Shown in pieces: positions 1 to 32,157 of a stretch of DNA of 64,000 bases. The notes beneath the pieces are model-generated. The model saw only the letters and a program-made list of their open reading frames with translations. It did not search any database and was not told the DNA's origin. The stretch's first letter is position 1, and the number at the start of each line of letters is the position of its first letter. Origin of the DNA: Apibacter sp. B3706 (GTDB lineage: Bacteria; Bacteroidota; Bacteroidia; Flavobacteriales; Weeksellaceae); assembly GCF_011082725.1 (NCBI RefSeq), contig NZ_CP049715.1, positions 1,550,001 to 1,614,000 of the forward strand, in the 5' to 3' direction. Position numbers and translations under genes: made by a program.

Positions 1-2311
1 ATCTTATAGTAAATCTTATAAATTGAGGATATTGATACAATATTTCTTTTGACTTATTTATTTTATTATAATCTGTCCTTAAATTAGCCTCAAGAGTTTT
101 AAAAATATCATTTGCGTATAAAGAAAACATTAATTTTTTATCCAAGAATAAAGCTTTTAATCCAAATCCTAAATTAAAATATGACTTCACTTTTTTTGTG
201 GATATATACTGCGGTAATGCGTATTGAGATATTATAGTTATATTAAATGTTTTTCCTTTATTTAGAGATAAATTATTATTTATATTAAAATTTGCGCTGA
301 TAAAGTTATTGGAACTTAATCCTTTTATCTGGGACTTATTTTCTTTATAGTATACATCAACATTAAAATAACTTTCTAACCATTCTGTTGAAGTAAAATT
401 ATAATTTTGGCTTAAGCCTATAGAATTCTCTGTAACAGAATTCTCTGCTTTTTTAAATATATATTCCTCTTCCTCTTCTAAATAATAAGCATAATCAATA
501 GCGTCTTTTGCTTTATAAAAATATATTCCCGTATTCCAATTATTTTTCCATGAATAATTCAATTCCAAGTTATCGGTGTAAGAGGGCTTTAAAAAAGGAT
601 TACCTGACATAACATCACCTTTACTTAAACGACTCTTAAATGGATTTAGATTTCTGTAAGTTGGTCTATTTACACGTCTAGTATAATTAACATTTAGTGT
701 ACGATCGTCACCTAAATTATAGGTTAAGTACATACTAGGAAACAATTTAGTAGAATTATATTTATGTTTTTCTTGAGTAAGTACAGAAAAAATTCTTCTT
801 TGAAAATTTTCTAATCTTAAACCCATTTTGATCTCCCACTTATCAACTATTTTACCTCTCCCGGATATATATGTTGCTTGCAAATTTTCTTTATATTCAT
901 AAGAATCATTTGCCTCACCTTGATGATATGAATCATTTGAAATAAGAGTAATATACCCTGCATCATTTGTCGTTTTTGTATGAGAAGTTTTTACACCATA
1001 TTCCAATCCGATTTTCCTAAAATGCTGTTCTACATCCAAATTCCCTGAATAATTGTAAATTTTCAAATTATTAAGATCGCGAGAACTAAAGTCATGACTA
1101 GGAATGTACGTTACAAAGTCCTCATAATCTTTAGAATTGAAAGTAACATCTTCTTTACGAGTATTTCCAAAATAATCTAAATTTAATTTAATTTTACTTC
1201 CTAATGTATCCAAACTATATTGAGAATGAAAATTTACATAAATATTGTTTGTACTACCAGGCCCCTTTGAATAAGTTTTTGTCAGTATAGGAGATATTGG
1301 TTTATAAAAATATTCATTAAGACTTATTCTATGTTGTACATCGTATGTTTCAAATATTGATTGAAATCCTAAAGAAAATTGATTTGTCCATTGATAATCC
1401 ATACCTAAACTCCCATTAAAACGTTTTTTCAATTTTGATTTAGACAAGGATTGAGAACATATATCTTCATCTAAATATGTAATATAATTTTTATCTCTTT
1501 GCGCATTATTTACACCATAAAAGAAGTTTATATCCGAATTAAGAGTTATTTTCTTATGATTTAAATTAAATCCTAAATTTGTATTATAATAATCATATTT
1601 TGATTGTTTATAAGTCCCACCGATATAACTTTTCCAGTTGTTCTTTTTACTTGTTTTTAACACAATATTTATTAATCCCGAATTACCTTCTGCATCGTAT
1701 TTTGCCGGTGGTGCGGTAATTACTTCAATACTCTTTATATTATCGGATGAAATAGATTTCAAATAATTAATTAATTCATCACCAGACAGTGGAATACTTC
1801 TTTCATTTACCATTACTTTTAAACTACTTTTTCCTATTATGGATATTTGTTCATTTTTAATTTGTATTCCGGGACTTAATTTTAATACATCCAATGCGTC
1901 TCCACCTGATGTAGCGGCTGAATTTTCAACGTTAAATATGGTTCGATCTATTTTTCGCTCTATTAATTTTTTATTTCCTGTTACAACCACTTGCTGAATT
2001 TCCTTACCTGAAGATAATTTTATGATTCCTAAATCCTTATTTTCTTTAAGCATAAATGAATTGGAATATAATTCTTCACTATCTTTTTCAATTTTTAATT
2101 CGTATAACCCTTCATATAATCCCTCAAAAATAAAACTGTTGTGATCAACTATATGAGTAGTTATTATGATTGAATCTTTATTGATTAAAGAAATTTTCAG
2201 ATGAACTCCGGATTTATTTTCGTCCCAATCCAACCTTCCTTTAACAATGATTTCTTGAGAATAGGAATAAATACATATTAATGCAGTAATTAATAAATAG
2301 TAAATTTTCAT
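1..2311 (-). CDS. TonB-plug outer-membrane beta-barrel receptor (receptor 1), 3' end cut by window edge
   Basis: The reading frame is open from an ATG at 2311 to the left edge, giving about 770 codons. Comparison with the paralogue at 5570-7960 suggests that about 25 C-terminal residues lie outside the window. It has an N-terminal signal peptide (MKIYYLLITALICIYSYSQ), a carboxypeptidase-regulatory-like beta domain to about residue 95, a TonB-plug-like region (VVVTGNKKLIERKIDRTIFNVENS, then LKLSPGIQIKNEQISIIGKSS) and a long aromatic-rich barrel. This order fits the Bacteroidota 'outer membrane beta-barrel family' (OMP_b-brl_3). It should sit in the outer membrane and bind or import a ligand, perhaps a peptide; the ligand is unknown. 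Its N-terminal half is strikingly similar at DNA level to the 5570-7960 receptor, indicating a fairly recent duplication. It is the last gene of the minus-strand receptor/peptide cluster. Confidence 0.85.
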   Translation of the reverse strand, partial: MKIYYLLITALICIYSYSQEIIVKGRLDWDENKSGVHLKISLINKDSIIITTHIVDHNSFIFEGLYEGLYELKIEKDSEELYSNSFMLKENKDLGIIKLSSGKEIQQVVVTGNKKLIERKIDRTIFNVENSAATSGGDALDVLKLSPGIQIKNEQISIIGKSSLKVMVNERSIPLSGDELINYLKSISSDNIKSIEVITAPPAKYDAEGNSGLINIVLKTSKKNNWKSYIGGTYKQSKYDYYNTNLGFNLNHKKITLNSDINFFYGVNNAQRDKNYITYLDEDICSQSLSKSKLKKRFNGSLGMDYQWTNQFSLGFQSIFETYDVQHRISLNEYFYKPISPILTKTYSKGPGSTNNIYVNFHSQYSLDTLGSKIKLNLDYFGNTRKEDVTFNSKDYEDFVTYIPSHDFSSRDLNNLKIYNYSGNLDVEQHFRKIGLEYGVKTSHTKTTNDAGYITLISNDSYHQGEANDSYEYKENLQATYISGRGKIVDKWEIKMGLRLENFQRRIFSVLTQEKHKYNSTKLFPSMYLTYNLGDDRTLNVNYTRRVNRPTYRNLNPFKSRLSKGDVMSGNPFLKPSYTDNLELNYSWKNNWNTGIYFYKAKDAIDYAYYLEEEEEYIFKKAENSVTENSIGLSQNYNFTSTEWLESYFNVDVYYKENKSQIKGLSSNNFISANFNINNNLSLNKGKTFNITIISQYALPQYISTKKVKSYFNLGFGLKALFLDKKLMFSLYANDIFKTLEANLRTDYNKINKSKEILYQYPQFIRFTIR

Positions 2312-2795: not shown

Positions 2796-5163
2796 TTAAT
2801 TTATTCGTTCTTTCTCTTCTTCATTACCTAATTTTCTTTTTCCTAAATTAAGTTTATTATTACCTAATTTATATACTATCGATATTTGAAAAAAATGATT
2901 AGTATCCCCATACCAGCTATACGTCTGCTTTATGCTGTTTGTAAAATCAGTGTATTTAGGCTTATTGGTTTGAAAAATATCTTCTCCCGAGATTGTTATT
3001 TGCAATTTTTTTTGTAAAAAAAACATTCTGAAAGCTAAATCAATACTTTGATATGAATTTATTTTACTTATCTCATCTACTCCTTTACCACTATAGATCC
3101 ATTTTATATTAAATATAAAATTTTTATTCTTGTGTAAGTAAAAGGAATTATCTGTTGAAAAATAAAATAACCAACCCATATTGCGGATTTTTCCTATTTG
3201 TGGATTATCTGACTTATATTCGGAATACTGTAAGTTCATTTCATTATTACTTTCCCACCAAGGAATTTCTGAAAATAAATAGAATATATCTAAATTTGAA
3301 GTAGATGAATTTACAGCATTCAATTGAGTAGAAACTTGTGTTTTATCAATAGTATTTAATAATGTCACATCTGTGTATTCATTTTTCACCCTTGAATAAG
3401 ACAAAGAAACTGATAAATCTTTATACTCATAATTTAATTCGAAATTATGTGTATAATAAGGTTTTAGATCAGGATTCCCTGTTATATAGGAATTAGGGGT
3501 TAAATACTGTTTAAATGGGTTTAAAACGGAAAACTTTGGTCGATGTATTCGCCTTCCATAATTTAAGGATATTACATTTTCTTCATCCATAGTATAAGAA
3601 AGATAGGCCGTTGGAAAGAATTTTATATAACTATTTTTGTTTATTTGTTGCAAAGTTTTAGATATGCCTTTTACTTGAGAAACTTCCATTCTTAATCCTA
3701 GCTGAGCCTTCCATTTAGCGTTAATTTCTTTAGATGTGTTCACATATAAACTTTCAATATTTTCTTGATATGTAAAATGATTACTATTGATTGTATCCGG
3801 AATTGGAACATTCTCTATATTCAAAATATAATAAGAGTATTTATTATCAACATGGTTAAAAGAAATCTTGCCGCCATAATTAAATTTAATATTTGAAAAT
3901 GGATGCTCCATATCTAGTGAGGTAGAATAATTTTCTAATTTTTGATCTAAATAATTTTTCGCTACATCCGTTTCATCAACAATTTGATCATGCAAAATAT
4001 AATTTGAATGAAACATACTACGAGGTTCGTTATTAAAACTAATATAATTAATATCCAAATTTAGCAACCGCCCTATACTGTCTATTTTATATTGAGTATG
4101 AAAATTAGCAATATGTATTTGTGAATTTTCTTTTATTAAAGTTGGAGTGTGAATAATGTTATAAGATTTATTACCTTCAATATCTACCAACGAATTTCTT
4201 TTCCCTATGAAATTAGATTGAGAATATGAATAATTTCCGCCTAAAGTAATATGATTATTTAATTTATAATCAAAATTTGTTCGAAATGATGGTTTTCTAC
4301 TTTTATCTGTACCATTAAATTTATTATACCACAATCCATCAGGGTAATAATAATTAATTTTATTTGTGAAATCACTAAATGTAAAATTATTAAATATATT
4401 AGCCGATACTGAGATTTTATTTTTATTAAAATTAAAATCAGCACCTTGACCGGAAGAAGTATGATGCGATTGTTTTAGATTTTCTTGCAAAGAAAGATTC
4501 CATGAATCTTTTTTTGCTTTTTTTAAAAGAATATTGATCAATCCACTATTACCTTCCGCTTCATATTTTGATGGCGGGTTCGTAATAATTTCTATACTTT
4601 TAATTGCTTCTGATGAAATACTTTGTAAATAATTAATGAGCGATTCACCAGATAATTCAACTATCCTATTATCAATCATAATTTTGACAGAGTTTTTACC
4701 TATAATTTTAATATTACTTCCATCAAACTTTAATTTAGGGGTCTTCTTCAATACATCAAGAGCAGTACCTGAAGAGGAGGCAAATGATTTTTCAACGTTG
4801 AACACCATTCTGTCTATTTTTCGCTCAATTAATTTTTTATTTCCTGTTACTAGTACTTGCTCTAGCTCTTTAGTTGGATATATTTTTATTTCACCTAAAT
4901 CGATGTCTTCATTTACATCCAAATTTTTCATATAAATATTTTTACCCAACTGTCTTATATTTAGGGAATAAACACCTTGTGATATATCATTAAAGATAAA
5001 AAAAACCGTCTTCTCCCATAATAGCATTTTTAATTATGGTATCGCGTTTATATAATAATATTTCTGCTGAATTTTCAATACTTAATTTTCCTCTAATTTT
5101 AAAAGACTGAGAAAAGGATATGTAAAAAGAAAATAATAGAATTATAAGATATTTAATTTTCAT
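2796..5163 (-). pseudogene. TonB-plug outer-membrane beta-barrel receptor (receptor 2), frameshifted in an 8-base homopolymer
   Basis: The gene starts at ATG 5163 (MKIKYLIILLFSFYISFSQ, a signal peptide). It reads in one frame to GEDGFF, then breaks at a run of eight A on the plus strand (4998-5005). The rest (FNDISQGVYSLNI... to ...EEEKERIN) continues in another frame to the stop at 2796. The span is 2368 bases, one more than a multiple of three. With seven bases in the run it would encode 788 residues, matching its paralogues (793 and 796). Plug (VTGNKKLIERKIDRMVFNVEKS) and barrel are otherwise intact, without further stops. It may be a pseudogene, a phase-variable gene now OFF, or a sequencing error; the intact remainder favours a recent or reversible event. 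A -7 element at 5187-5194 rules out the upstream ATG at 5220. Confidence 0.85.
4998..5005. repeat. (A)8 homopolymer at the receptor 2 frameshift
   Basis: Eight consecutive A on the plus strand (T on the coding strand) lie about 53 codons into receptor 2. Seven or ten would restore the frame; eight does not. A homopolymer in the early coding part of a surface receptor is a usual site for slipped-strand phase variation, and also for base-calling errors. Confidence 0.8.
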
Positions 5164-5186
5164 AATAGCATTCTCATTCGATGGCG

Positions 5187-5194
5187 CAAAACTA
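5187..5194 (-). promoter_or_regulatory. Bacteroidota -7 element for receptor 2
   Basis: The minus strand reads TAGTTTTG, matching TAnnTTTG, 24 bases before the ATG at 5163. It places transcription inside the upstream in-frame ATG (5220), which supports the 5163 start. Confidence 0.6.
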
Positions 5195-5417
5195 TAATAA
5201 TTAAACAATAAACCAAACAATTTTATTCGTTTTAAGACATAATAACAATTTACTAAATCAGAATATAAATAAAATAAGATAAATTTATTTTTTTACACTT
5301 GAATTTACTTTATCCTTATTTTTATCTTGGAAAAAGTGAAATATATTTATTTATCTTACAATTATTTAAAAAAATGATTTTTTTTCATAATTGAAATATG
5401 AATTTTTTTATTTAAAA

Positions 5418-5569: not shown

Positions 5570-7960
5570 CTATTTAGCTCTGTATTGTTCTTCCTCATTA
5601 CCTGTTTTGATAGACTTAGATTTTATTGAATTATTCCCAAAATTATATTTTATCGAAAACCGTAGATTTTGTGAAAATTCATAATCAGTAATTTTATTCT
5701 TATTTTGATTGTATACACTATATACTTTATATTTAAATGTTTTAAAAATATCATTGGCATATAAGGAAAGCACTAATTTTTTATCAAGAAACAGACATTT
5801 CAATCCTGCACCAAAATTTGAAAAGGATTTCAATTTATCCGTCCCATCATACTGAGGAAAATTATATTGATATACTATGGTAAAATATGCAGTTTTATTT
5901 CTATTTAGAAATAAATTATTATTTATCTCTAAGCTTGAACTTATAGTATTATTTGAATTAAAACCTTCAATTTTAGATTTATTTTCTTTATAAAATAAAT
6001 TTAATGTAAGAGTACTTTCCCAAAATTTAAATGTATTGAATACATAATTTTGATTTAGACCTACGGAATACTCGTTGACACTGTTTTCAAATTTATAATG
6101 CAAAAAATTAGTGTCGTCCTCTTTTAAGTAATTTACCATATTTATCACATCTTCCGCTTTATAAAAATAGATCCCACTTGTCCACTTATTTTTCCAGGTA
6201 TAATTTAATTCTAAATTATCTGAATTTGAAGAATGTAGATATGGATTACCTGCTTGTGTTGTATTTTTATTTATATGAAGAACAAAGGGATTTAATGCCC
6301 TATACCACGGCCTATTTATACGTCTAGTATAGGTAAATGTAAAAGTATTTTTTTCATTTAACACATACGATAAATAAAAGCTCGGAAACAATTCAATTGA
6401 ATTAGATTTATATTCTTCTTTAGATACTACGGAATTAATTTTGCTTTGAAAGCTTTCCAATCGTAAACCGATTTGTATTTCCCATCTATCCAAAATTTTT
6501 CTTCTCCCTGAAAAATAAATCGCTTGAATGTTTTCTTTATATTCCAAAAGATCTTTGTATTTTTCTTGAAAATCATTTTTTCCTTCTTTATTTTCACAAT
6601 AGCCTATATTATTAGTTATTTTACTATGCGATATTTTAATACCATAATCTATTCCCAAATTTTTTAATTTTTGCTCTACATCTAAATTTCCGGAATAATT
6701 TGAAATTTTTTGATTATTTGTATCCAGAGAGGCAAAATCGTTTGTAGGTAAATACGAATCAAAATCTATATAATCTTTTGAATTTAAAATTGCATTTTCT
6801 TTTCTCGTATTTTTAAAATAATTCAAATTTAATTTAATCTTACTTCCCAGACTATCCAATTTATAGTGTGTGTAAAAATTCGAATAAAAGTTTTCTCTTT
6901 CTTCGATTTCTTTTGATACACTATTCGTCAAAATATTTGGATTTAATAAATTATATTGATATTGTTTATTATATAGATTTAAAGAACCTTCAGTTTTCTT
7001 ATACAATAAGTGAACACCTAAATTTAATTTCTCTATTATTTGATAATCCAAATCAAGGTTTCCATTAAAGTATTTTTTTAGCTTAAAATTACTATTAATA
7101 TAATTATTGATATTTTTATCAGTAAATTCACTATATTTATTGATCAGTTGTGAAAAATTTTTACCATTATAAAAATCTATAGCAGTATTGAATGTTATTT
7201 TTTTATAATTAAATGTAAATCCTAAATTTTCATTAAATAATGCATATTTAGCCTGTTTATAAGTCCCACCTATATAACTGTTCCAATTATTCTTTTTACT
7301 TGTTTTTAAAACAATATTTATTAATCCCGAATTTCCTTCAGCATCGTATTTCGCGGGAGGTGCGGTGATCACTTCAATTTTCTTAATATTATCAGATGAA
7401 ATGGATTTTAAATAATTAATTAAATCATCATCAGATAGTGGAATGATCTTATCATTAACTAATATTTTCAAGCTACTTTTACCGAACATGGATATTTGAT
7501 CATTTTTAACTTGTATTCCCGGGGTTAATTTCAATACATCCAAACCATCTCCTCCTGAGGTTGCAGCTGAATTTTCAACATTAAATATAGTTCGATCTAT
7601 TTTTCGATCAATTAGTTTTTTATTTCCTGTAACTACTATCTGCTGTAATTTTACACCGGTAGACAGATTAATTATTCCTAAGTCTGTATTTTCTTTTATT
7701 ATTAACGTTTTGGAATATAATTCTTCATTATCTTCTTTAATTTTTAACTCGTATAATCCTTCGTATAAATTTCTAAAATTAAAGTTTTTATGATCATCTA
7801 TCTCTGAAGTAATGATAATAGAATCTTGCTTGATCAAATATATTTTGTATTTATTTTCAAATATATTTTCATTTAATTCAAGCCTCCCTTTAAGAGTAAT
7901 TTCTTGAGAATATGAATAATTACATACTAATATGATAACAAATAAATAGAAAATTTTCAT
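5570..7960 (-). CDS. TonB-plug outer-membrane beta-barrel receptor (receptor 3)
   Basis: This 796-residue protein is complete. It has a signal peptide (residues 1-18, ending YSYSQ), a carboxypeptidase-regulatory-like domain (about 20-95), a TonB-plug region (about 108-230, with VTGNKKLIDRKIDRTIFNVENS and EVITAPPAKYDAEGNSGLINIVLK) and a C-terminal beta-barrel ending in alternating hydrophobic strands (NLRFSIKYNFG). The length is usual for the family. It follows the peptide exporter on the same strand, with a 410-base gap and its own -7 element at 7984-7991, so it can be expressed alone. It is the closest paralogue of receptor 1. Its ligand is unknown; uptake or sensing of the peptide made by the neighbouring genes, or recognition of a competitor's peptide, is inference from context. 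Confidence 0.85.
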   Translation of the reverse strand: MKIFYLFVIILVCNYSYSQEITLKGRLELNENIFENKYKIYLIKQDSIIITSEIDDHKNFNFRNLYEGLYELKIKEDNEELYSKTLIIKENTDLGIINLSTGVKLQQIVVTGNKKLIDRKIDRTIFNVENSAATSGGDGLDVLKLTPGIQVKNDQISMFGKSSLKILVNDKIIPLSDDDLINYLKSISSDNIKKIEVITAPPAKYDAEGNSGLINIVLKTSKKNNWNSYIGGTYKQAKYALFNENLGFTFNYKKITFNTAIDFYNGKNFSQLINKYSEFTDKNINNYINSNFKLKKYFNGNLDLDYQIIEKLNLGVHLLYKKTEGSLNLYNKQYQYNLLNPNILTNSVSKEIEERENFYSNFYTHYKLDSLGSKIKLNLNYFKNTRKENAILNSKDYIDFDSYLPTNDFASLDTNNQKISNYSGNLDVEQKLKNLGIDYGIKISHSKITNNIGYCENKEGKNDFQEKYKDLLEYKENIQAIYFSGRRKILDRWEIQIGLRLESFQSKINSVVSKEEYKSNSIELFPSFYLSYVLNEKNTFTFTYTRRINRPWYRALNPFVLHINKNTTQAGNPYLHSSNSDNLELNYTWKNKWTSGIYFYKAEDVINMVNYLKEDDTNFLHYKFENSVNEYSVGLNQNYVFNTFKFWESTLTLNLFYKENKSKIEGFNSNNTISSSLEINNNLFLNRNKTAYFTIVYQYNFPQYDGTDKLKSFSNFGAGLKCLFLDKKLVLSLYANDIFKTFKYKVYSVYNQNKNKITDYEFSQNLRFSIKYNFGNNSIKSKSIKTGNEEEQYRAK

Positions 7961-8358: not shown

Positions 8359-8453
8359 ATTAATTTAGGATTATGTGCCCAATTCCAATTGATTTTTAAC
8401 CAAATTATAGTAATTTGACCTTAATTTTACTAATTGGCTATGATTTCCTGTTT
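8359..8453 (-). repeat. Original copy of the 95-bp exporter-end repeat
   Basis: This is the 3' end of the ABC exporter gene plus 12 bases beyond its stop. It is repeated at 5418-5512 with three mismatches. Confidence 0.9.
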
Positions 8454-10587
8454 CTACTATTTGACCGTTTTTTAAAACTACTATTTGATCTGCATTTTTA
8501 ACCGTTGACAACCGATGAGCTATAATTATCACGGTTTTACCTTTAAAAAATTCTTGTAAATTGGCATGAATAATCCTTTCATTTTCAGAATCTAAAGCAG
8601 AAGTAGCTTCATCAAAAAATAAGTATTCAGGATTTTTATAAACAGCCCTCGCTATAAGAATTCTTTGTTTTTGCCCACCCGATAATTCTATCCCGGCATT
8701 CCCTACACGAGTGAAATAATGCATCGGTAAGTTTTCTATAAAATCTTGTATTCCCGCTATTTTTGCTGCTTTTCTAAGTTTGTCTACATCATAGCTTTTT
8801 CCGGACATGGAAATATTACTTGCAATGGTATCACTAAAGATGGTTCCATTTTGAAGCACTGTTCCACATCGCTCTCTCCATTCTTCGGCATTTATATCAT
8901 TCATGGAACAGGTATCTAAATATATTCCTCCTTTTTTTATAGGATAGTACGATAATAATAATTTCAACAGAGTTGTTTTACCACTTCCACTAGCTCCGAC
9001 AATGGCCGTTATGGAGTTTTTAGGTATTACCATATGTATATCCTTTAGTATAAAGGGATTATGGGTTCCCGGATATTTAAAGGACATATGATCAATATAA
9101 ATATTTTGAATAACGCAATTTTTTATATGCTTTTTATTTTGAGAATCTTCATCAGGTATTTCATAGATTAGTTCAATTCTTTTATTGGCAATAATGGTAT
9201 CTTGTGTATCACGAAGAAACATAATTAAATTTTGTAATGGTGTTGAAAGTTGTCCGATGACATAGGATATTCCCATTAAAGTTCCCAAAGACATTTGGTC
9301 CTCTATGATAAATGTTGCACAAAATGCTATGGCAATAATTTCTTTTAATTTGGAAAGTGTATCTACTCCAAAAAGCTGATAGGTATTTAAAAGTAACGAT
9401 TTAATTTCCAATCGGTTTAATTTATCTTGAGTAGAAATAATTCGATCAATAATTTTTTCCTGAGCATTATTAATTTTTATCTCAGGCATATTCATTATGA
9501 ATTCGTATATATTATTGCTGTTTTCTGATCTTTTTAAAAATGATGCATATTCAATTATATTTCGTTTATTAAAAAAAATAGAAAACCACAATACTGAAAT
9601 TATAGACAATACCAGATATACACAAAATATGGTTATGCTAAAATATGCCAATACACAGCTAAAAACAACCACATTTAAAAAACTCAATAGTAAAGTAACC
9701 CCTTTCCAGGTAAAAAACCGTTGAATGGTTTGCTGATCTTCCAACCGTTGTAGAATTTCCGTGTTAATTTGAGTGTCAAAGAAAACTATGGGTAAACGTA
9801 ATATTTTTAAAAGTAATGTTTTTCGTAATTCAATACTTAATATGAAATTTAGCTTAGTAAGCACAATTTGACTAAAAAAGTCCGAGGCAAAATTAGAGAT
9901 GAACAAAATAAATTGCGCTAATAAAAGATAATAAACTACTCGTAATGATTTTGAAGAAATTCCTAAATCAATAATGTTCTGAAAAGTAAAAGGAATGAAC
10001 CAATTCGTCACTAATCCTATGAAAACTAAAAATATAGCAAGGAAATAGTTACGTTTATTATTTTTTAAAAACCTATACGTATATTTTATTATACTGGATT
10101 GAAACAAACTTTTATTTTTTACATTATCAATTTTTATAGTGAAAAAATTTTCAGAAGGTTCCAAAAATAAAACGATCCCCTTAGTGTTGTTTTCTTTCCA
10201 CTCAGTTATAAAAGATTCTCTATCTAGTACGACCTTGCCATAACCGGGATCTGCTAAATGAAAATAAACTTGATTTTTCTTTTTAACTATTTTTTCTAAA
10301 ACTACAAAATGACTTTGTTTCCAATATAAAATATAAGGCGTGGGAATTTCATCTAATTCTTCAACAGTTAATTTTAACGCATGGGCTGTTAATCCTAATT
10401 TTTCGGAGACATCCACGAGATCTTGTACAGATACTCCAATACGAGTAAATTCAAAAAAAGATTTAATATAATTAAGTGAAGTTTTTTTGCCAAAATAACT
10501 CATGATCATGGCTAGACAGGCTGCTCCGCAATCGCTGCTTTCGAGTTGATTATAAAATTGTAAACGATGCCTTTTATTTATTCGCAT
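8371..10587 (-). CDS. Peptidase-containing ABC transporter (C39 protease, PCAT), peptide processing and export
   Basis: This 738-residue protein has three parts. The N-terminal C39 cysteine protease carries C20 in SSDCGAACL, H93 in QSHFVVL and D113 in LADPGYG. A six-helix membrane domain spans about residues 165-460. A nucleotide-binding domain carries Walker A GASGSGKTT, signature LSGGQKQR, Walker B YLFFDEATSALD and an AHRLSTV switch. Such enzymes cut leader peptides after a double glycine while pumping the core out of the cytoplasm. The start overlaps the end of the radical SAM gene by 14 bases, so the two are translationally linked. The obvious substrate is the GG-leader peptide at 12331-12513. 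All catalytic residues are present. Confidence 0.95.
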   Translation of the reverse strand: MRINKRHRLQFYNQLESSDCGAACLAMIMSYFGKKTSLNYIKSFFEFTRIGVSVQDLVDVSEKLGLTAHALKLTVEELDEIPTPYILYWKQSHFVVLEKIVKKKNQVYFHLADPGYGKVVLDRESFITEWKENNTKGIVLFLEPSENFFTIKIDNVKNKSLFQSSIIKYTYRFLKNNKRNYFLAIFLVFIGLVTNWFIPFTFQNIIDLGISSKSLRVVYYLLLAQFILFISNFASDFFSQIVLTKLNFILSIELRKTLLLKILRLPIVFFDTQINTEILQRLEDQQTIQRFFTWKGVTLLLSFLNVVVFSCVLAYFSITIFCVYLVLSIISVLWFSIFFNKRNIIEYASFLKRSENSNNIYEFIMNMPEIKINNAQEKIIDRIISTQDKLNRLEIKSLLLNTYQLFGVDTLSKLKEIIAIAFCATFIIEDQMSLGTLMGISYVIGQLSTPLQNLIMFLRDTQDTIIANKRIELIYEIPDEDSQNKKHIKNCVIQNIYIDHMSFKYPGTHNPFILKDIHMVIPKNSITAIVGASGSGKTTLLKLLLSYYPIKKGGIYLDTCSMNDINAEEWRERCGTVLQNGTIFSDTIASNISMSGKSYDVDKLRKAAKIAGIQDFIENLPMHYFTRVGNAGIELSGGQKQRILIARAVYKNPEYLFFDEATSALDSENERIIHANLQEFFKGKTVIIIAHRLSTVKNADQIVVLKNGQIVETGNHSQLVKLRSNYYNLVKNQLELGT

Positions 10588-11899
10588 TCTCTAAAATTTC
10601 ACTTATTTTATTTCTTATAACCTTTTCTTTTTCTGTTTCATCCCATGAATACACACAATACTCTCTATTAGCGGCCAGACTTTCCAAGGCAGTTTGAGAA
10701 CACCCTCCATTACATAAAGGTAAAATTTTACATTCTAAGCATGGACGATTCTTGAACTTTGAATTCATTCGTTTATTTAATGAGTCATTTTCCCAAAATA
10801 ATTCTCCGTTTTCCGTTAAATATCCTTCCCTATTTTTAGTTGAGAAATCACGGGCAGTACATTTAAATATATCTCCGTTATAATTGATAACAACACTATT
10901 TTTTTTATCTGCATAGCATGAATTTCGAAGGGTATCCGGGCTATATTCATGGCACGAGGTTTTTCCCCCTTTGCTATTTATTTGATTCATTTCTTCATCA
11001 GCAATATCTTGTGTCTGATCTATTTTTTTATTTTGCCATACTCTATGAAAATCGAATTTTAAAAATTGAGTTTTAATATCTTCTTCGATATCTTCAAAAT
11101 CGTCATAAATTTTGTTTGCATTAAAAATATTTGAATCAGTGAAATTTATTCTAACATTCACATAGAATTTATTCTTTATCAAGTTTTTTATATTTGAAAC
11201 AATTTTATCATAAGAACCCTTATTTTGACTTATATAGCGCACTTTATTATGTTCTTCTTTATGACCATCTAAAGTGATTTGTAAATTGCATCGGACGTTT
11301 TTATCCAAGAAAAAATTTATAAATTCTTGATTTGCTAAATATCCATTAGTAGTGAAAGATGTATAAGCATTTATATTTTTCTCTGTACATCTTTCTAAAT
11401 AATAATTAATTATAGGAATTACATTTTTATTAAAATATAATAAAGGTTCTCCGCCAAAAAATGAAATATTCATATTTTTTAAATCCTTATTATTGGTAAT
11501 GGTATCTATCAACCTTTTGATTTTAGAAAGTCCATTTTCATCTAACCTTGAACTTTTTACCAGATTTTCATAACAATACCAACATTTAAAATTGCAATTC
11601 ATAGTTGGATTGATAGTTAATAAAAACAATGAATTATCTTCATCAATGCTTTTACTTATTTTTTTTATTTCATCCAGCTCATCTATTTCATCATTAATAA
11701 TAAATTTTTCTTCTACCATATAATTGAAAAATTCCGGATGGATCTCTTTTAGCTCTGATGTTTTATACATTTCCATTAATTCTTTAAGTTCAGATTGTAT
11801 AAAAAGTAATCGTTGCTCAAGGGTATTATATAAAACATATTGCTCTCCATAAGGTAAGCATACATTATAATGACTATATTTCATAGAATGTATTTCCAT
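10574..11899 (-). CDS. Radical SAM/SPASM peptide maturase
   Basis: This 441-residue protein has a radical SAM core with the CX3CX2C cluster motif (C102, C106, C109 in CNFKCWYC) and a GGEP motif (residues 149-152). The C-terminal SPASM domain has the full ligand set for extra Fe-S clusters: C328-X13-G-X4-C347, then C387-X2-C390-X5-C396-X3-C400, then C415. SPASM enzymes install thioether, C-C or similar crosslinks, often at cysteine or other side chains of ribosomal peptides. The N-terminal 85 residues may serve peptide recognition; this is inference. It lies between the precursor and the exporter, overlapping the latter by 14 bases. Two starts are possible (11899 or 11884); both are short of a clear ribosome site. 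The precise chemistry cannot be read from the sequence. Confidence 0.92.
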   Translation of the reverse strand: MEIHSMKYSHYNVCLPYGEQYVLYNTLEQRLLFIQSELKELMEMYKTSELKEIHPEFFNYMVEEKFIINDEIDELDEIKKISKSIDEDNSLFLLTINPTMNCNFKCWYCYENLVKSSRLDENGLSKIKRLIDTITNNKDLKNMNISFFGGEPLLYFNKNVIPIINYYLERCTEKNINAYTSFTTNGYLANQEFINFFLDKNVRCNLQITLDGHKEEHNKVRYISQNKGSYDKIVSNIKNLIKNKFYVNVRINFTDSNIFNANKIYDDFEDIEEDIKTQFLKFDFHRVWQNKKIDQTQDIADEEMNQINSKGGKTSCHEYSPDTLRNSCYADKKNSVVINYNGDIFKCTARDFSTKNREGYLTENGELFWENDSLNKRMNSKFKNRPCLECKILPLCNGGCSQTALESLAANREYCVYSWDETEKEKVIRNKISEILENANK

Positions 11900-12330
11900 T
11901 ATATTTATTTAATTTATTAAGTTCTCTTCTATTACTAATTTTGAAAAATAAAATCCATTTATTTGCTTTATACTTATTTTATACATATATTATATTGTAT
12001 TTACATTTAGATGATCGTTATAGTAAATCTTATTAATCGTTATATATTTTAAAAAATGATTGCTAGATTAATATTTTAATAATACATAAGAAGTCATGAT
12101 AATTCATTTGATTATAAACCGAGTGCTCATAGGCAAAACTTAGTTTTGTTTAACTTTGACCTTTATATTTTAACACAGCTATGCTAGTATTTAAAATACA
12201 TCTGTTACTCATTTTTTACATATTTATAAAGCTTTATAAAAATCCAGCTGACATTTTTTTAAACTTATATATAATAGTCCATAACAGAGTATTGCTGCTA
12301 ACAATACTCTGTTAGATTAAAGTAAGATTG
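11900..12330. other. Leader region between peptide precursor and maturase
   Basis: No gene is found here on either strand. At the precursor end lies a perfect 13-bp hairpin (12282-12314). A small repeat CAAAAC-TTA-GTTTTG lies near 12135-12149. I see no confident -7 element for the maturase, so it may depend on readthrough of the hairpin. Confidence 0.45.
12282..12314 (-). terminator. Strong hairpin between precursor and maturase genes
   Basis: TAACAGAGTATTG (12282-12294) pairs perfectly with CAATACTCTGTTA (12302-12314) around a 7-base loop, 17 bases after the precursor stop. There is no T-tract directly behind it on the transcribed strand. It is therefore better seen as a partial terminator or mRNA-stabilising hairpin that would raise precursor over maturase and exporter levels, a common arrangement in peptide clusters. 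Confidence 0.65.
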
Positions 12331-12513
12331 TTAACATTTCCATCTAACCGGACCCGTACATTTATTTATACAAATTCCTACATTCATACATCCACCCATT
12401 ACATCCTTAGCATCAACTGCTGTTAATGATTTTGAAAAACCTCCTTTTAAAACTTCTCCTGACGTTTGTAATGTTTCAAATTTTTTAACGTCAACTTTTT
12501 TTGTTGTTTTCAT
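12331..12513 (-). CDS. Double-glycine-leader peptide precursor (RiPP), four-cysteine core
   Basis: This 60-residue peptide has a lysine-rich N-terminus (MKTTKKVDVKKFETL) and a leader ending LTAVDAKDVMGG. That fits the GG-leader rule: L at -12, T at -11, D at -8, V at -4, G at -2 and G at -1. Cleavage after G41 would release CMNVGICINKCTGPVRWKC, 19 residues with cysteines at 1, 7, 11 and 19 (CX5CX3CX7C) and one tryptophan. A second GG (KGGF, residues 23-26) lies inside the leader but lacks the rest of the motif. The gene is 81 bases downstream of receptor 4 and is followed by the maturase and exporter on the same strand. A radical-SAM-modified cysteine peptide is the natural reading; the bioactivity is unknown. 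Confidence 0.88.
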   Translation of the reverse strand: MKTTKKVDVKKFETLQTSGEVLKGGFSKSLTAVDAKDVMGGCMNVGICINKCTGPVRWKC

Positions 12514-12594
12514 ATTTGATTAATTATTGAAAATTTTAGAGTAACCTTTTTGTGTCTTGACTCATTTATGGACAACGATTGCAATCAGTATTTT

Positions 12595-14976
12595 TTATTT
12601 AATTCTATTCTGATCTTCTGTATTACTTCCCTCAATATTTTTTTCTTTTACTGTTGAACTTCCTAATTTATAGCTTAGTGATATTCGTATTGAAGGAGAT
12701 TCATAATACCCCCTATATTTAGCACTTATGCCGTTATTGGTGCTTTTATTTCTAAATTGATCTGCATTAAATAGATTAGTAACCTGTAAGGATAATTGCA
12801 TTTTTTTATCCAACAGTAGAGCTTTAAAAAACATATCCATTTGCGTTAATGAATAATTGGTACTTAAAGCTCCTTGACTGCGCGGGTAATAAGAAATTAT
12901 CAAGTCTGCTGACAATGTCTTACTTTTATTAAGGATAAATGTATTATTAGCTTGTATTCTACCCATAAATCCTTCTTGAGATTTATCCGTGATCGGATAA
13001 ATTTTAGATTTTAAATATAGATATCCCCCGACTAACATTAGATTACTTTGCAACCAATTCAATTTAGTATAGGTAAAAGATTGAATTATCCCTACTCCGT
13101 AATTATCAAAATAATTCTCCACTTTTGTTGCTTGTATATAACTATCTTTATCCAAATAGGTAACATCGTTAAAGTTATCTTTTTGAATCATAAATTGTAA
13201 AATGGTTTGTATAATGTCTTTATAATAATAAGATAATTCAATACTGTTATTAATGACAGGTTTTAAAAAAGGGTTTCCTTCAGAATATTGATAGGGATTA
13301 GAATAATTCCTGAAAGGATTAACGGAATTGTAATCCGGCCGGTCAATTCTTCTGGAATAGGTAAAAGAATAAGAATTATTCTCGTTTGCTTTATAAAGTA
13401 TATATAAGGTTGGAAAAAATTTCAAATAATTATTTTTATTATGTTCATTAAGTGAAATGGAATTTCCACGAGTTTGCGTATTTTCCATTCTAATCCCTAG
13501 TTGAATATCCCATTTTTTCATTTCTTTATTGACTGAAACATAAATAGCTTGCGAATTTTCTTTATATATAAAGTCATCTTGATGCGTTTTTTCAATTACA
13601 CTCTCACCTTTTATCAGGTAATTCCTTAAACTGCTTTTCGTTTTCGTAAAAGATATTTTAGCCCCGTATTGTAAGTTTATAAAAGAAAGGGGGTAATCAA
13701 TATCAACCCGGCCGCTATAATTATCTATATCTAGCGATCCCTTATTTTCAACTGGGAAATAACGCGTAATTAGATCGTTGTGAGTCCCATAAGAACGGGT
13801 TAAATAATTGTATTTTTTCTCAGTATTGTAGTTAAAATAATCAAAATTCAATTTTATTTTTTTACCTGAACTATCAATGGTAAAATGTGAATACCAATTA
13901 AGTGAATTCAATCTTTTTGTAGAATTTTCATAGCTTATAGTCCTGAGTAATGAATCCAATTTATTTTCATATGTATGGAAATTTGTTATATCCTTATATC
14001 GAGAATGCGGTTCTGAATAATTGAGCAAATATTGTATTCCTGAATTCCATTTAGAAGTTAATTGATAATCTAACAAAAATTTTGAACTGAGTGTATTTTG
14101 ATAATTTTTACCTGTTTCCTTTTCATCCCATAATTGCTCGGGATAATACACCTTACTTTTTTTTAAATTTTTGTAATTGCCGTTCGAGTAATTAGATGAT
14201 AGGCCTAAGTTTATTTTATTTTTACTGTAAGTAAAGTTTGCCCCAAAATTACCTGATGCGTAATACCCTTGTTTATATGAAGACGTAAGGTTAGATGCCC
14301 AAAAATCTTTTTTGATTTTTTTTAAATTTATATTTATAAGACCTGAGTTACCTTCTGCATCATATTGTGAGGGAGGCGTAGTTATAACTTCAATATTCTT
14401 TACCTGGTCAGAAGGAATACTTTTTAAATAATTAAATAAATCATCACCATTCAAAGAAACGATCTTATCATCAATCAGCACTTTTACCGAACTTTTACCT
14501 GTAAGAAATAATTGATTATTTCGTACCTCTATTCCCGGCATAAGGTGTAAAATATCTAAAACATCTGTTCCGGCGGATCCTATTGAATTTTCAATATTAT
14601 AAATCGTTCTGTCAACTTTCTTTTCAATTAACCTTTTTTTTCCGGTAACTAATATCTCCTGTAATTCGTTAGGCGTTCTTATGGATAGTATACCTAAATC
14701 AGTATTTTCTTTAAGTTCCAAGCTTTGAGCATATAAAACTTCCTCCGATTCTTTAATGATCAAATTATAATTTCCTAGAGACAAATGATCAAAACAAAAT
14801 TTACCTTCTTCTTTGACTATAACTTTTCCTACTATCGAATCTCGATTTGCCAGAATTACTTCAGCTAAATGACCGGAATTAACTTTTTCAAATTTTATTT
14901 CTCCTTTAATATGAACTTTTTGAGAAAAACTTAGGAAGAACTGAAAGAATAAAACTAATAAAATATTAATCTTCAT
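12595..14976 (-). CDS. TonB-plug outer-membrane beta-barrel receptor (receptor 4), first gene of the peptide cluster
   Basis: This 793-residue protein has a signal peptide (residues 1-18, ending SFSQ), a carboxypeptidase-regulatory-like domain, a plug region (VTGKKRLIEKKVDRTIYNIENS, then EVITTPPSQYDAEGNSGLININLK) and a barrel ending SIRISLSYKLGSS. It belongs to the same family as receptors 1-3 but is more diverged. It stands immediately upstream of the precursor on the same strand, with an 81-base gap and no promoter I can see between them, so the precursor may be cotranscribed with it. That linkage is the best argument that these receptors concern the peptide, for example through self-recognition, re-uptake or immunity; this is inference. 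The -7 region (TAAATGTG, 14982-14989 on the minus strand) matches the consensus imperfectly. Confidence 0.85.
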   Translation of the reverse strand: MKINILLVLFFQFFLSFSQKVHIKGEIKFEKVNSGHLAEVILANRDSIVGKVIVKEEGKFCFDHLSLGNYNLIIKESEEVLYAQSLELKENTDLGILSIRTPNELQEILVTGKKRLIEKKVDRTIYNIENSIGSAGTDVLDILHLMPGIEVRNNQLFLTGKSSVKVLIDDKIVSLNGDDLFNYLKSIPSDQVKNIEVITTPPSQYDAEGNSGLININLKKIKKDFWASNLTSSYKQGYYASGNFGANFTYSKNKINLGLSSNYSNGNYKNLKKSKVYYPEQLWDEKETGKNYQNTLSSKFLLDYQLTSKWNSGIQYLLNYSEPHSRYKDITNFHTYENKLDSLLRTISYENSTKRLNSLNWYSHFTIDSSGKKIKLNFDYFNYNTEKKYNYLTRSYGTHNDLITRYFPVENKGSLDIDNYSGRVDIDYPLSFINLQYGAKISFTKTKSSLRNYLIKGESVIEKTHQDDFIYKENSQAIYVSVNKEMKKWDIQLGIRMENTQTRGNSISLNEHNKNNYLKFFPTLYILYKANENNSYSFTYSRRIDRPDYNSVNPFRNYSNPYQYSEGNPFLKPVINNSIELSYYYKDIIQTILQFMIQKDNFNDVTYLDKDSYIQATKVENYFDNYGVGIIQSFTYTKLNWLQSNLMLVGGYLYLKSKIYPITDKSQEGFMGRIQANNTFILNKSKTLSADLIISYYPRSQGALSTNYSLTQMDMFFKALLLDKKMQLSLQVTNLFNADQFRNKSTNNGISAKYRGYYESPSIRISLSYKLGSSTVKEKNIEGSNTEDQNRIK

Positions 14977-29823: not shown

Positions 29824-30216
29824 TTAAGTATTAGGCCATTCATTAACATGTTTACCTGTACCCATTTTAATAGTCCTTGCTGAAATAGTAAACGTTTCAG
29901 TTAGAGAATTGGCGCCGAAAGCATCAAAATTTTCTCTGTACTTAACCACATAACCATCTGTAAATGACAATTCTTTCAAAGTATCATCAGAATCTCTTTT
30001 TACAAAGATAACTTTACCATCTTTTCTCTCAAAACTATTAGTCATCCATTCGAAGATATCAGATTCTCCTGTTGATTCTACTGTTACTTCAATTCTTCCA
30101 CCTCTGGTCTGAGAAGATGGACGTCCGGTTGGATCAGTTTCTTGAGCTAAGGAATAATTAACACTCAAAATGTTGTACTTTTTTCCCCCTACTTCTAATT
30201 TAGATTTAAAAGACAT
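29824..30216 (-). CDS. tssD: Type VI secretion system tube protein TssD (Hcp), Bacteroidota type
   Basis: This 130-residue protein begins MSFKSKLEVGGKKYNILSVNYSLAQETDPTGRPSSQTRGG, the hallmark start of the Bacteroidota TssD/Hcp family, and continues IEVTVESTGESDIFEWM and TETFTISARTIKMG. Hcp hexamers stack into the inner tube of the T6SS (subtype iii in this phylum) and can carry effectors. No other intact T6SS gene is in the window, so this is an isolated copy. It is transcribed from its own -7 element (30256-30263). The sequence upstream of it on the same strand appears to be decayed coding DNA. Confidence 0.88.
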   Translation of the reverse strand: MSFKSKLEVGGKKYNILSVNYSLAQETDPTGRPSSQTRGGRIEVTVESTGESDIFEWMTNSFERKDGKVIFVKRDSDDTLKELSFTDGYVVKYRENFDAFGANSLTETFTISARTIKMGTGKHVNEWPNT

Positions 30217-31314: not shown

Positions 31315-32157
31315 ATGAAAAAGAAATTTCTACTATTTAGAATTTTATTTATTACTATTAATGGATTAGTATTAATTAATAGTTGTAATAACGACAATGA
31401 TATCAACCCGATATCGAATAAGAAAGAAAGTATTACAACTTTCGAAAAAAAATATATAAGGTATCTTTATCCGGAATCAAATAATGATTCAATTAAATTA
31501 ATTGGATTCAAAACGGTCTATTTCAACAAAGATGAAGCACAAGAAATTAAGAATGCACAAGAATTATACAAAAAAGAATTAATTGAAATTAACAAATCAA
31601 TTTATTATGCTGAAGATTATTCTTTTATTCGAGTATATTTCCCCATGAGTGATGCTATAGTAAACTATAATGGAAAAACGTATGAAGCAAGTAATCGAGG
31701 AAGCTTTATTACAGATGCGTTTGTAAATTTAAAAACTACTTCTCGGATACAAGTGATTGGAAGAAAAGCATCCGAACACATTACGGGAACAGATTTTAAT
31801 AATATTGAAGGAAATCAAATATTACTTGCTGAAAAATTAGAAAAAGCAATGAAAGATCATACTACTGAAAATACCTTTGTATTTAATTTAGGAGAAAGAA
31901 GCTTTAATCATCACTCCTTAGAAAATAAAACTATAACTGAACGTTCCATTTCCTGTTATCAAAATCATGGAAATTTAAATTGTAGCACGGCTTTCGGTTA
32001 TAATGGAAAATGTGATAGAGAATTTACAAATTGCATGGATTATAATGGATGGCCTGCAAGATGCTTTGATAAAAGCAAAATTGGCTTTGTTGGTAGTGAT
32101 TGCCAAAGAGCAATGGCTGCCGGAAAATGTTGGAATGAGATTATGAATCGTAATTAA
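31315..32157 (+). CDS. Cysteine-rich lipoprotein, unknown
   Basis: This 280-residue protein has a lipobox (LVLINSC, C23-C24 region, followed by NNDND). The middle part is mixed alpha/beta. The C-terminal 70 residues carry seven cysteines (SISCYQNHGNLNCSTAFGYN, then KCDREFTNCMDYNG, ARCFDKS, DCQRAMAAGKC), suggesting a compact disulfide-bonded domain outside the cytoplasm. I recognise no family. It is monocistronic, flanked by AT-rich sequence, and 1.1 kb from tssD in the opposite orientation. The location in a variable region suggests an accessory surface or antagonism function, which is speculation. Confidence 0.7.
   Translation: MKKKFLLFRILFITINGLVLINSCNNDNDINPISNKKESITTFEKKYIRYLYPESNNDSIKLIGFKTVYFNKDEAQEIKNAQELYKKELIEINKSIYYAEDYSFIRVYFPMSDAIVNYNGKTYEASNRGSFITDAFVNLKTTSRIQVIGRKASEHITGTDFNNIEGNQILLAEKLEKAMKDHTTENTFVFNLGERSFNHHSLENKTITERSISCYQNHGNLNCSTAFGYNGKCDREFTNCMDYNGWPARCFDKSKIGFVGSDCQRAMAAGKCWNEIMNRN

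Follow-up and report, generated by a model that had tools for sequence, protein, structure and literature searches.

The probable peptide-export module discussed here lies in a 64,000-nucleotide stretch of the Apibacter sp. B3706 genome (the window). It resembles several described systems. Colicin V export requires a peptidase-containing ATP-binding cassette (ABC) transporter (PCAT), a membrane fusion protein (MFP) and TolC (PMC10352776). Systems of this type share a double-glycine (GG) leader, a C39 peptidase-ABC exporter and a Gram-negative producer with the module in the window. Unlike them, the module has no MFP gene, and it includes a TonB-plug barrel and a radical SAM maturase.

The lack of an MFP beside a PCAT has been remarked upon before. 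In the Bacteroidales clusters BGC6-9 for ribosomally synthesized and post-translationally modified peptides (RiPPs), a PCAT is found with an outer-membrane protein (OMP) and no MFP, and the authors ask about a distinct transport mechanism (PMC10352776). BGC6-8 encode YcaO and BGC9 encodes LanM, all are from Bacteroidales, and the type of OMP is unstated in the parts compared. Unlike for BGC6-9, the pattern is counted here over 80 loci and two draws of C39 exporters.

Barrels have been linked to export in other settings as well. Graspetide clusters, mostly from Bacteroidetes, also hold TonB-receptor-related proteins beside RiPP genes, and these are predicted to mediate export; the clusters are instead defined by ATP-grasp enzymes (PMC8939145). 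In the Oar-PopC system of Myxococcus, a TonB-dependent transporter is likewise required for protein secretion; the cargo is a protease, and the abstract names neither C39 nor RiPPs (PMC6434023). Amyloid export uses a gated barrel and the cysteine protease FapD (PMC5557850).

RiPPs, SPASM enzymes, PCATs and TonB barrels are known kinds of component. In searches of the open-licence PubMed Central literature, no paper was recognized as describing this family; a radical SAM RiPP atlas to which PMC10352776 refers (J. Am. Chem. Soc. 2022) may include it. Nothing on this family is found in the parts of PMC9576775 compared. The antiSMASH table for Chryseobacterium herbae, the species of locus L026 below, lists no radical SAM region as far as it is shown (PMC10459008).

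A conserved four-gene module

The genome is a single contig of 2,297,680 bases, of which the window covers bases 1550001-1614000. The module consists of four genes, all on the minus strand and in one direction, together with an inverted repeat.

12595-14976, minus strand: OMP1, a TonB-plug outer-membrane beta-barrel (PF14905) with a signal peptide-like N terminus, which leads the module (Pfam, AF2, Foldseek)
12331-12513, minus strand: precursor of 60 amino acids (aa), with leader motif LKGGFS (residues 22-27) and a second GG at 40-41 (open reading frame (ORF), alignment of relatives)
12282-12314, minus strand: perfect 13-bp inverted repeat just 3' of the precursor stop (RNA hairpin z = -3.7)
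10574-11899, minus strand: radical SAM/SPASM maturase, 441 aa (Pfam, conserved cysteines, fold)
8371-10587, minus strand: C39 peptidase-containing ABC exporter, 738 aa (Pfam, catalytic residues)

An earlier sequence-only reading had placed the four genes at these positions. It had also given the overlap of maturase and exporter as 14 bases, which is correct (10574-10587, 14 nt). The grouping exceeds chance, as relatives show the same recurring neighbours.

In the proposed mechanism, the maturase would bind the leader of the 60-aa precursor and cross-link its cysteines. Cleavage at one of the GG sites by the C39 domain would accompany transfer of the peptide to the periplasm by the ABC exporter. 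Finally, a dedicated TonB-plugged barrel, rather than an MFP with TolC, would carry the modified peptide across the outer membrane. For this scheme as a whole, with the barrel replacing MFP-TolC, the chances seem evenly balanced. That the product is an exported RiPP is very probable. A leader-cleaved, radical-SAM-modified, C39-exported peptide had been proposed from the start, and it is implied by the gene families and by the candidates beside the maturases of relatives.

Relatives were collected with one maturase protein query, which returned 98, of which the best 80 were kept. They are labelled with L numbers, as are the other loci mentioned; L003 is the region that holds a second module. 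Nearly all bear Bacteroidota names. Two have proteobacterial names (L039 and L063, metagenome-derived and perhaps mis-binned), and L058 is named "bacterium". Within Apibacter, the maturase is present in four of the nine genomes searched, its own included. A plasmid search gave 102 matching records, 13 of them covering 80% of the query, with the best match (54%) in Flammeovirga.

Clustering of all large ORFs over the 80 loci gives three leading families: the maturase (80 loci), the C39 ABC exporter (76) and the OMP (74). The next families are a lantibiotic dehydratase (15), a 286-aa protein without Pfam match (14) and a short MFP-like protein (11). The OMP count depends on the method: BLAST with OMP1 finds it in 70 loci, clustering in 74, and a profile limited to the same strand and about 6 kb in 69. 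Precursor candidates are found in 78 of the 80 loci; the conservation check that the sequence-only reading had asked for thus did not go against it. Under the first rule eight loci gave no precursor, and six of these have SGF-type candidates; L007 has a fitting frame with no clear start codon, and L029 has no precursor. One ORF of L063 was excluded before counting.

The physical link to a receptor had been called unusual. It is instead the rule, since an OMP is near-constant (74 of 80 loci) and co-varies with the exporter. The nearest OMP lies upstream on the same strand in 65 of the 74 OMP-bearing loci, and it is still adjacent in L006, L029 and L036, where the gene order is altered. The longest frames of maturase and exporter overlap in 44 of the 73 loci with a downstream exporter. 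Judged by its gene content, the compact RiPP module is one of two tandem modules and is conserved across Bacteroidota.

The exporter matches Peptidase_C39 (108.8 bits), ABC_membrane (80.6) and ABC_tran (95.2). The catalytic Q, C, H and D are present in all 69 aligned exporters longer than 600 aa (window, second module and 67 loci), as in a PCAT. The C39 protease and ATPase are thus intact, as first noted. The exporters of the window and of the second module are the sole C39 matches in the genome.

Barrels and membrane fusion proteins beside C39 exporters

Two draws of C39 exporters were made from other genomes, with the Apibacter genome itself excluded. Exporters were frames of about 700 aa or more with at least 65 bits. 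In both draws they were chosen regardless of maturase. Draw 1 took 148 genomes of the phylum and gave 48 exporters. Draw 2 took 126 genomes of the order and gave 54 exporters, all from genomes that had not contributed earlier.

Over both draws (102 regions), a module-type OMP occurs in 12 regions. A full-length MFP is found in none of these 12, compared with 77 of the 90 others. In draw 1, a PF14905-type OMP of at least 300 bits occurs in 6 of 48 regions, with an MFP of any length in 0 of 6 as against 38 of 42 (Fisher 1.7e-5); for MFPs of at least 320 aa the counts are 0 of 6 and 37 of 42. Draw 2 used the draw-1 OMP rule unchanged and took as MFP a profile match of at least 320 aa. Here an OMP occurs in 7 of 54 regions, with a full-length MFP in 0 of 7 as against 40 of 47 (Fisher 1.9e-5), and the p-values of both draws overstate the evidence because the genomes are related.

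Rescoring with separate profiles puts the OMP nearer to the module barrels than to housekeeping barrels in 12 of 13 regions. The OMP of L250 is even (79 and 77 bits); this region was found via its own near-copy and is counted as OMP-less in the 12 of 102. L250, L258 and L260 are probably the same places as L020, L060 and L062, and the OMP profile contained L020 and L062.

Barrels accompany different modifying enzymes. In the OMP regions L195 and L198, a lantibiotic dehydratase and a LanC-like protein are encoded, so the barrel goes with the exporter and not with one enzyme. In these two regions the OMP is slightly more than 6 kb away from the exporter, and in L204 it is on the opposite strand.

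Some MFPs are short. Those of draw 1 have 329-482 aa save two (152 and 194 aa, in L185 and L209, with no longer one there). The short MFPs of draw 2 are those of L217 (133 aa, no OMP), L222 (138 aa, in addition to one of full length) and L260 (241 aa, OMP present). Ten OMP-bearing maturase loci have MFPs of 241-244 aa, and nine of them also have a lantibiotic dehydratase. These MFPs match positions of about 1-104 and 263-408 in a profile of 415 positions, skipping from about 95-105 to 262-270. In full MFPs the skipped middle is poor in proline and glycine, heptad-like and predicted to form a coiled coil. A profile built without the 241-244 aa proteins still finds them (E 2.3e-36 or better). 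The coiled coil is the part of an MFP that meets TolC, and its loss in barrel-bearing loci agrees with the barrel replacing MFP-TolC.

Further evidence is provided by co-divergence over 63 sets (window and 62 loci). OMP distances correlate with those of the exporter (0.46) and of the maturase (0.28). In partial Mantel tests, the correlation of OMP and ABC exporter given the maturase is 0.39 (0 of 2000 permutations), and that of OMP and maturase given the exporter is -0.13 (1889 of 2000). The outcome is alike after collapse to 52 sets and without the short-MFP loci (46 sets). OMP divergence tracks the exporter, not the maturase.

The absence of full-length MFPs alongside, the occurrence of both SPASM and lanthipeptide partners, and the co-divergence together argue that the barrel belongs functionally with the exporter. 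That it is the outer-membrane exit has slightly less than an even chance. More tentatively, the TonB-plugged barrels of this clade may be dedicated exporters of C39-ABC peptides in Bacteroidota, a single barrel in place of the MFP-TolC duct that serves both radical-SAM RiPPs and lanthipeptides, with the coiled-coil-less MFPs of some lineages as relics or as periplasmic adaptors to it.

Exit or receptor

OMP1 matches OMP_b-brl_3 (268.5 bits, cut-off 27), TonB_dep_Rec_b-barrel (35.1, cut-off 27) and, weakly, Plug (17.3, cut-off 23.9). Its AF2 model has a pLDDT of 83.8, and the best Foldseek match of the model is the siderophore receptor 5fr8 (E 1.9e-21). As modelled, OMP1 is a TonB-dependent receptor by its plug, which scores under the Pfam cut-off, and its large barrel. 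It is the first of four PF14905 barrels in a tandem array that has two exporters. The other three are as follows.

5570-7960, minus strand: OMP2, a paralogous TonB-plug barrel between both modules (Pfam, OMP tree)
2796-5220, minus strand: OMP3, a paralogous barrel in two frames (signal peptide 4990-5220; plug and barrel 2796-5027)
1-2311, minus strand: OMP4, the barrel heading the second module, cut by the left edge of the window (whole gene L003:13924-16311)

The frame change of OMP3 is close to a T tract, and an inactive gene, phase variation or a sequencing error are all possible. A match to the Bacteroidota promoter pattern is found at 5187-5217.

In the OMP tree, OMP1 is placed beside the OMPs of L005 and L007 and away from most of the family's other PF14905 proteins, and OMP2-4 join two further tandem barrels of L007. 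L007 (Apibacter mensalis) has three tandem OMPs, one in each of the three groups that hold the four of the window. Two OMPs, those of L018 and L020, are not placed in the module clades, and parts of the backbone have low support.

The barrel may instead be a receptor that captures or re-imports the module's own peptide for self-protection, sensing or nutrient recovery, with the peptide leaving by a housekeeping exit and the several OMPs recognizing kin peptides. This main rival is possible, if rather doubtful. TonB-dependent receptors are entry gates of microcins, and one such pair, Cir with microcin V (9nn6), turns up when OMP1 is compared by profile and by fold. Four OMP paralogues for two modules and the three tandem OMPs of L007 suit this role, and no other family recurs in the loci often enough to serve as an immunity gene common to them. 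By itself, however, a receptor role leaves unexplained the missing full-length MFPs beside the OMP, the coiled-coil-less MFPs, and the co-divergence of the OMP with the exporter rather than with the enzyme that shapes the peptide.

Signalling, competition or metal capture had been offered as possible roles in the sequence-only reading. If the peptide is a metallophore, the OMP would be its uptake receptor. The cores are rich in cysteine, and siderophore receptors are among the profile and fold matches of OMP1. Such a resemblance is expected of any TonB-dependent receptor, however, and no metal-handling family is found among the commonest neighbours. The window also has no Fur-box-like site with up to three mismatches, judged by the E. 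coli consensus, which may not apply. A metallophore is improbable.

Several observations weigh against the barrel as an exit. TonB-dependent transporters mostly import, and the OMP1 model looks like an ordinary TonB-dependent receptor in the Foldseek comparison. Four OMPs with two exporters suit several receptors better than one exit each. In 11 of the 80 maturase loci, no OMP lies on the same strand within roughly 6 kb, and raw OMP-maturase distances are correlated too. The absence of an MFP is a pattern of gene neighbourhoods and not of function.

The counting rule is a further point on this side. A first draw-1 count, with an OMP of any score on the same strand within 6 kb, gave 2 regions with both genes, 3 with an OMP only, 35 with an MFP only and 8 with neither (p = 0.07), and the 300-bit, whole-region rule was fixed after it. 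The OMPs of the two regions with both, L181 and L206, have 1024 and 972 aa and score 76 and 35 bits. Under the whole-region rule, OMP loci with an MFP number 4 of 10 at 30 bits, 1 of 7 at both 100 and 150 bits, and none at 200, 300 and 400 bits. The OMP profile of the draws also mixed module barrels with other (housekeeping) PF14905 barrels.

A planned test of gene context is likewise weak. C39 genes lie beside two of five module-clade OMPs (L147 and L148) and one of 15 controls (L156). L147 has a GG ORF, a SPASM protein and a broken C39 frame, and L148 has radical SAM and C39 ABC genes. The controls L160-L162 are outside the tree; L160 resembles OMP1 by BLAST and has no C39 gene nearby. Four genes follow one another in L156 (550-6738): a GG-leader ORF, one for a 340-aa protein that matches nothing in Pfam, an OMP gene and a C39 exporter gene. 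They may form a RiPP system whose modifying enzyme is of another kind.

The genome itself supplies one more point of this kind, as HlyD-type and TolC/OEP-type proteins are encoded away from both modules. The OMP could then be a hitch-hiker or a receptor for another nutrient, with the peptide leaving through an ordinary MFP-TolC encoded elsewhere. Within either module, no match of the genome to HlyD_D23 or HlyD_3 and no such ORF is found; an MFP acting from elsewhere is possible. A C39-linked MFP like that of L167 was not found in the genome, in a search without positive control. The presence of the OMP in 74 of 80 loci, even where the gene order is altered, and its co-divergence with the exporter also speak against a hitch-hiker, which is improbable.

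Precursor, maturase and second module

The precursor has a cysteine-rich C terminus (C42, C48, C52 and C60) and two GG sites, at residues 24-25 (LKGG/FS) and 40-41 (VMGG). It matches no Pfam or NCBIfam family. TIGR04149, for GG-Bacteroidales radical-SAM-modified RiPPs, does not match it and is found in 1 of 109 scanned precursors (best E 0.0017). A named family was tried for the relatives and rejected, as three NCBIfam and three Pfam families match just 1-2 of 109, and weakly.

Relatives nevertheless share features of the core. In 75 close precursors (the window and 37 of the 39 loci L005-L043), C-x(4,5)-C-x3-C occurs in 49 and NC-x-[GAS]-x-NC in 47, as against 2 each of 83 precursors of other loci. 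The core of the window, C-x5-C-x3-C, is a diverged form of that of its relatives. The statement that the core fits no RiPP class therefore holds in that it has no Pfam or NCBIfam name, and fails in so far as it implied a core without kin. A conserved leader motif and a variable cysteine core beside a modifying enzyme are features of a RiPP precursor; the counts are partly circular, because candidates were chosen via the GG motif and, mostly, one cysteine after it.

Cutting after the first GG would give a product of 35 residues beginning FSKSL (calculated monoisotopic mass 3730.795 when unmodified), and cutting after the second, 16 residues further on, one of 19 beginning CMNVG (2123.992). The sequence-only reading had used the second. 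Its near-canonical GG leader on a 60-aa precursor stands, but its 19-residue core is uncertain and is one of two possible products, as the first GG (LKGGFS) is the one common to relatives. The close relatives L005, L010, L012 and L017 have no second GG, and neither has the frame in L007; exporters near that of the window should therefore cut at the first. C39 cleavage at LKGG/FS is accordingly read from these alignments as the probable event.

Cleavage after VMGG, with GGFS as a recognition motif within the leader, has a fair claim too, if a lesser one than an even chance would give it. C39 leaders have a hydrophobic residue at -12 and -4 and an acid at -8, and the second GG has this spacing. 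A second xGG lies within 22 residues of GGF in 47 of 158 precursors. In 23 of these 47 the distance from GGF to the end of the second site is exactly 14 residues (15 in the window) and the spacing is canonical; these 23 come mainly from more distant loci. Since F follows GG even where a second GG is nearer the core, GGF appears to be more than a cut mark. This suggests that the motif, which helped to pick the candidates, does more than mark the site.

No degenerate second precursor was seen in three frames of the 431-nt gap 5' of the maturase. The precursors of L075, L053, L080 and L063 have GG leaders of the form GGF-x-IKGG or IRGG and repeated CTN/CSN-rich cores. L075 has six of them, and in all four loci they adjoin the OMP, maturase and exporter.

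The maturase matches Radical_SAM in Pfam (51.9 bits), and its SPASM match is below the cut-off (15.1 against 21.5 bits). Its complete cysteine sets, claimed at the outset, are borne out in 81 aligned rows (window and 80 loci). The CxxxCxxC cysteines are present in all 81 and the seven C-terminal SPASM cysteines in 79-80, so that ten Fe-S cysteines are nearly invariant, as in radical SAM/SPASM enzymes. The N-terminal region is possibly a leader-binding RiPP recognition element (RRE) domain, to judge from predicted strands and helices.

Among the best 25 of 52 matching NCBIfam families, none reaches its equivalog cut-off. The closest named families, near full-length, are TIGR04463 (180.4 bits, cut-off 525), Clo7bot TIGR04334 (149.1, cut-off 600) and CefB NF038107 (147.1, cut-off 600), all far under their curated cut-offs. 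The nearest solved structure by profile is 5wgg (E 2.7e-22) and the nearest fold is 5why (E 2.4e-14), titled thioether bond formation. This enzyme, CteB, is like the maturase in its radical SAM and SPASM fold and unlike it in substrate, with 21-22% identity.

The maturase probably cross-links the cysteines of the precursor, with thioethers the likeliest bonds. That it makes another bond instead (cyclophane, epimer or other) is less likely. Many SPASM families match it at comparable strength, with cyclophane formers further down the list, and SuiB, a carbon-carbon bond former, is its second structural neighbour by both profile and fold. The core of the window has a tryptophan (WKC), and in 59 of the 75 close cores an aromatic residue (W, Y or F) or H is found beyond the third residue. 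However, 16 of the 75 have no aromatic residue there and Trp occurs in only three, while all 75 have at least two cysteines, a count limited by the one Cys after GG required in choosing most of these cores.

The second module lies just left of the window (L003) and consists of a C39 ABC exporter, a radical SAM/SPASM protein, a 58-aa GG-leader ORF and an OMP. Its precursor (L003:13663-13839, minus strand) has a canonical leader (EKLSTDEIKIIKGG) and a core with two cysteines and a tryptophan, and has no NCBIfam match. TIGR04463 is the family closest to the radical SAM enzyme of this module (211.8 of 525 bits), and the two maturases are 27% identical. Along most of their length the two exporter genes agree at roughly half of the positions, but DNA identity is 81-91% over approximately the final 300 columns of the alignment. 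These near-identical 3' ends (window 8371-8700 and L003:9487-9800) make gene conversion between the tandem copies likely.

Regulatory signals and significance

The hairpin at 12282-12314 has no T-run directly after it and was not called by the terminator scan; it is possibly an attenuator or mRNA stabilizer. Over the window, that scan is not clearly above shuffles (1 terminator-like site, 1.7 in shuffles), and a sigma-70 scan is not clearly so (62 promoter-like sites, 52.6 in shuffles, sd 8.3). The Bacteroidota -33/-7 pattern occurs 8 times in the window (4.5 expected by chance), with none upstream of OMP1 or the precursor.

Elsewhere in the window, 29824-30216 (minus strand) encodes a Type VI secretion tube protein, TssD/Hcp (Pfam, 170.5 bits). 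A 280-aa lipoprotein-like protein with a cysteine-rich C terminus and no Pfam match is encoded at 31315-32157 (plus strand).

As far as the open-licence literature tells, three things are new: the widespread precursor family, the counted exclusion of barrel and MFP, and the coiled-coil-less MFPs. The two draws and the coiled-coil-less MFPs turn the printed question about the outer membrane (PMC10352776) into a single-gene test. Should the barrel prove to be the exit, the outward role of TonB-dependent transporters would become clearer for a large phylum. Should it prove to be a receptor, every cluster would bring a matched pair of peptide and receptor, which would be useful for target finding. 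In both cases the cysteine-rich RiPP precursors make up a widespread family without a Pfam or NCBIfam name, and the set of genes hints at an uncharted bacterial route for peptide release or recapture.

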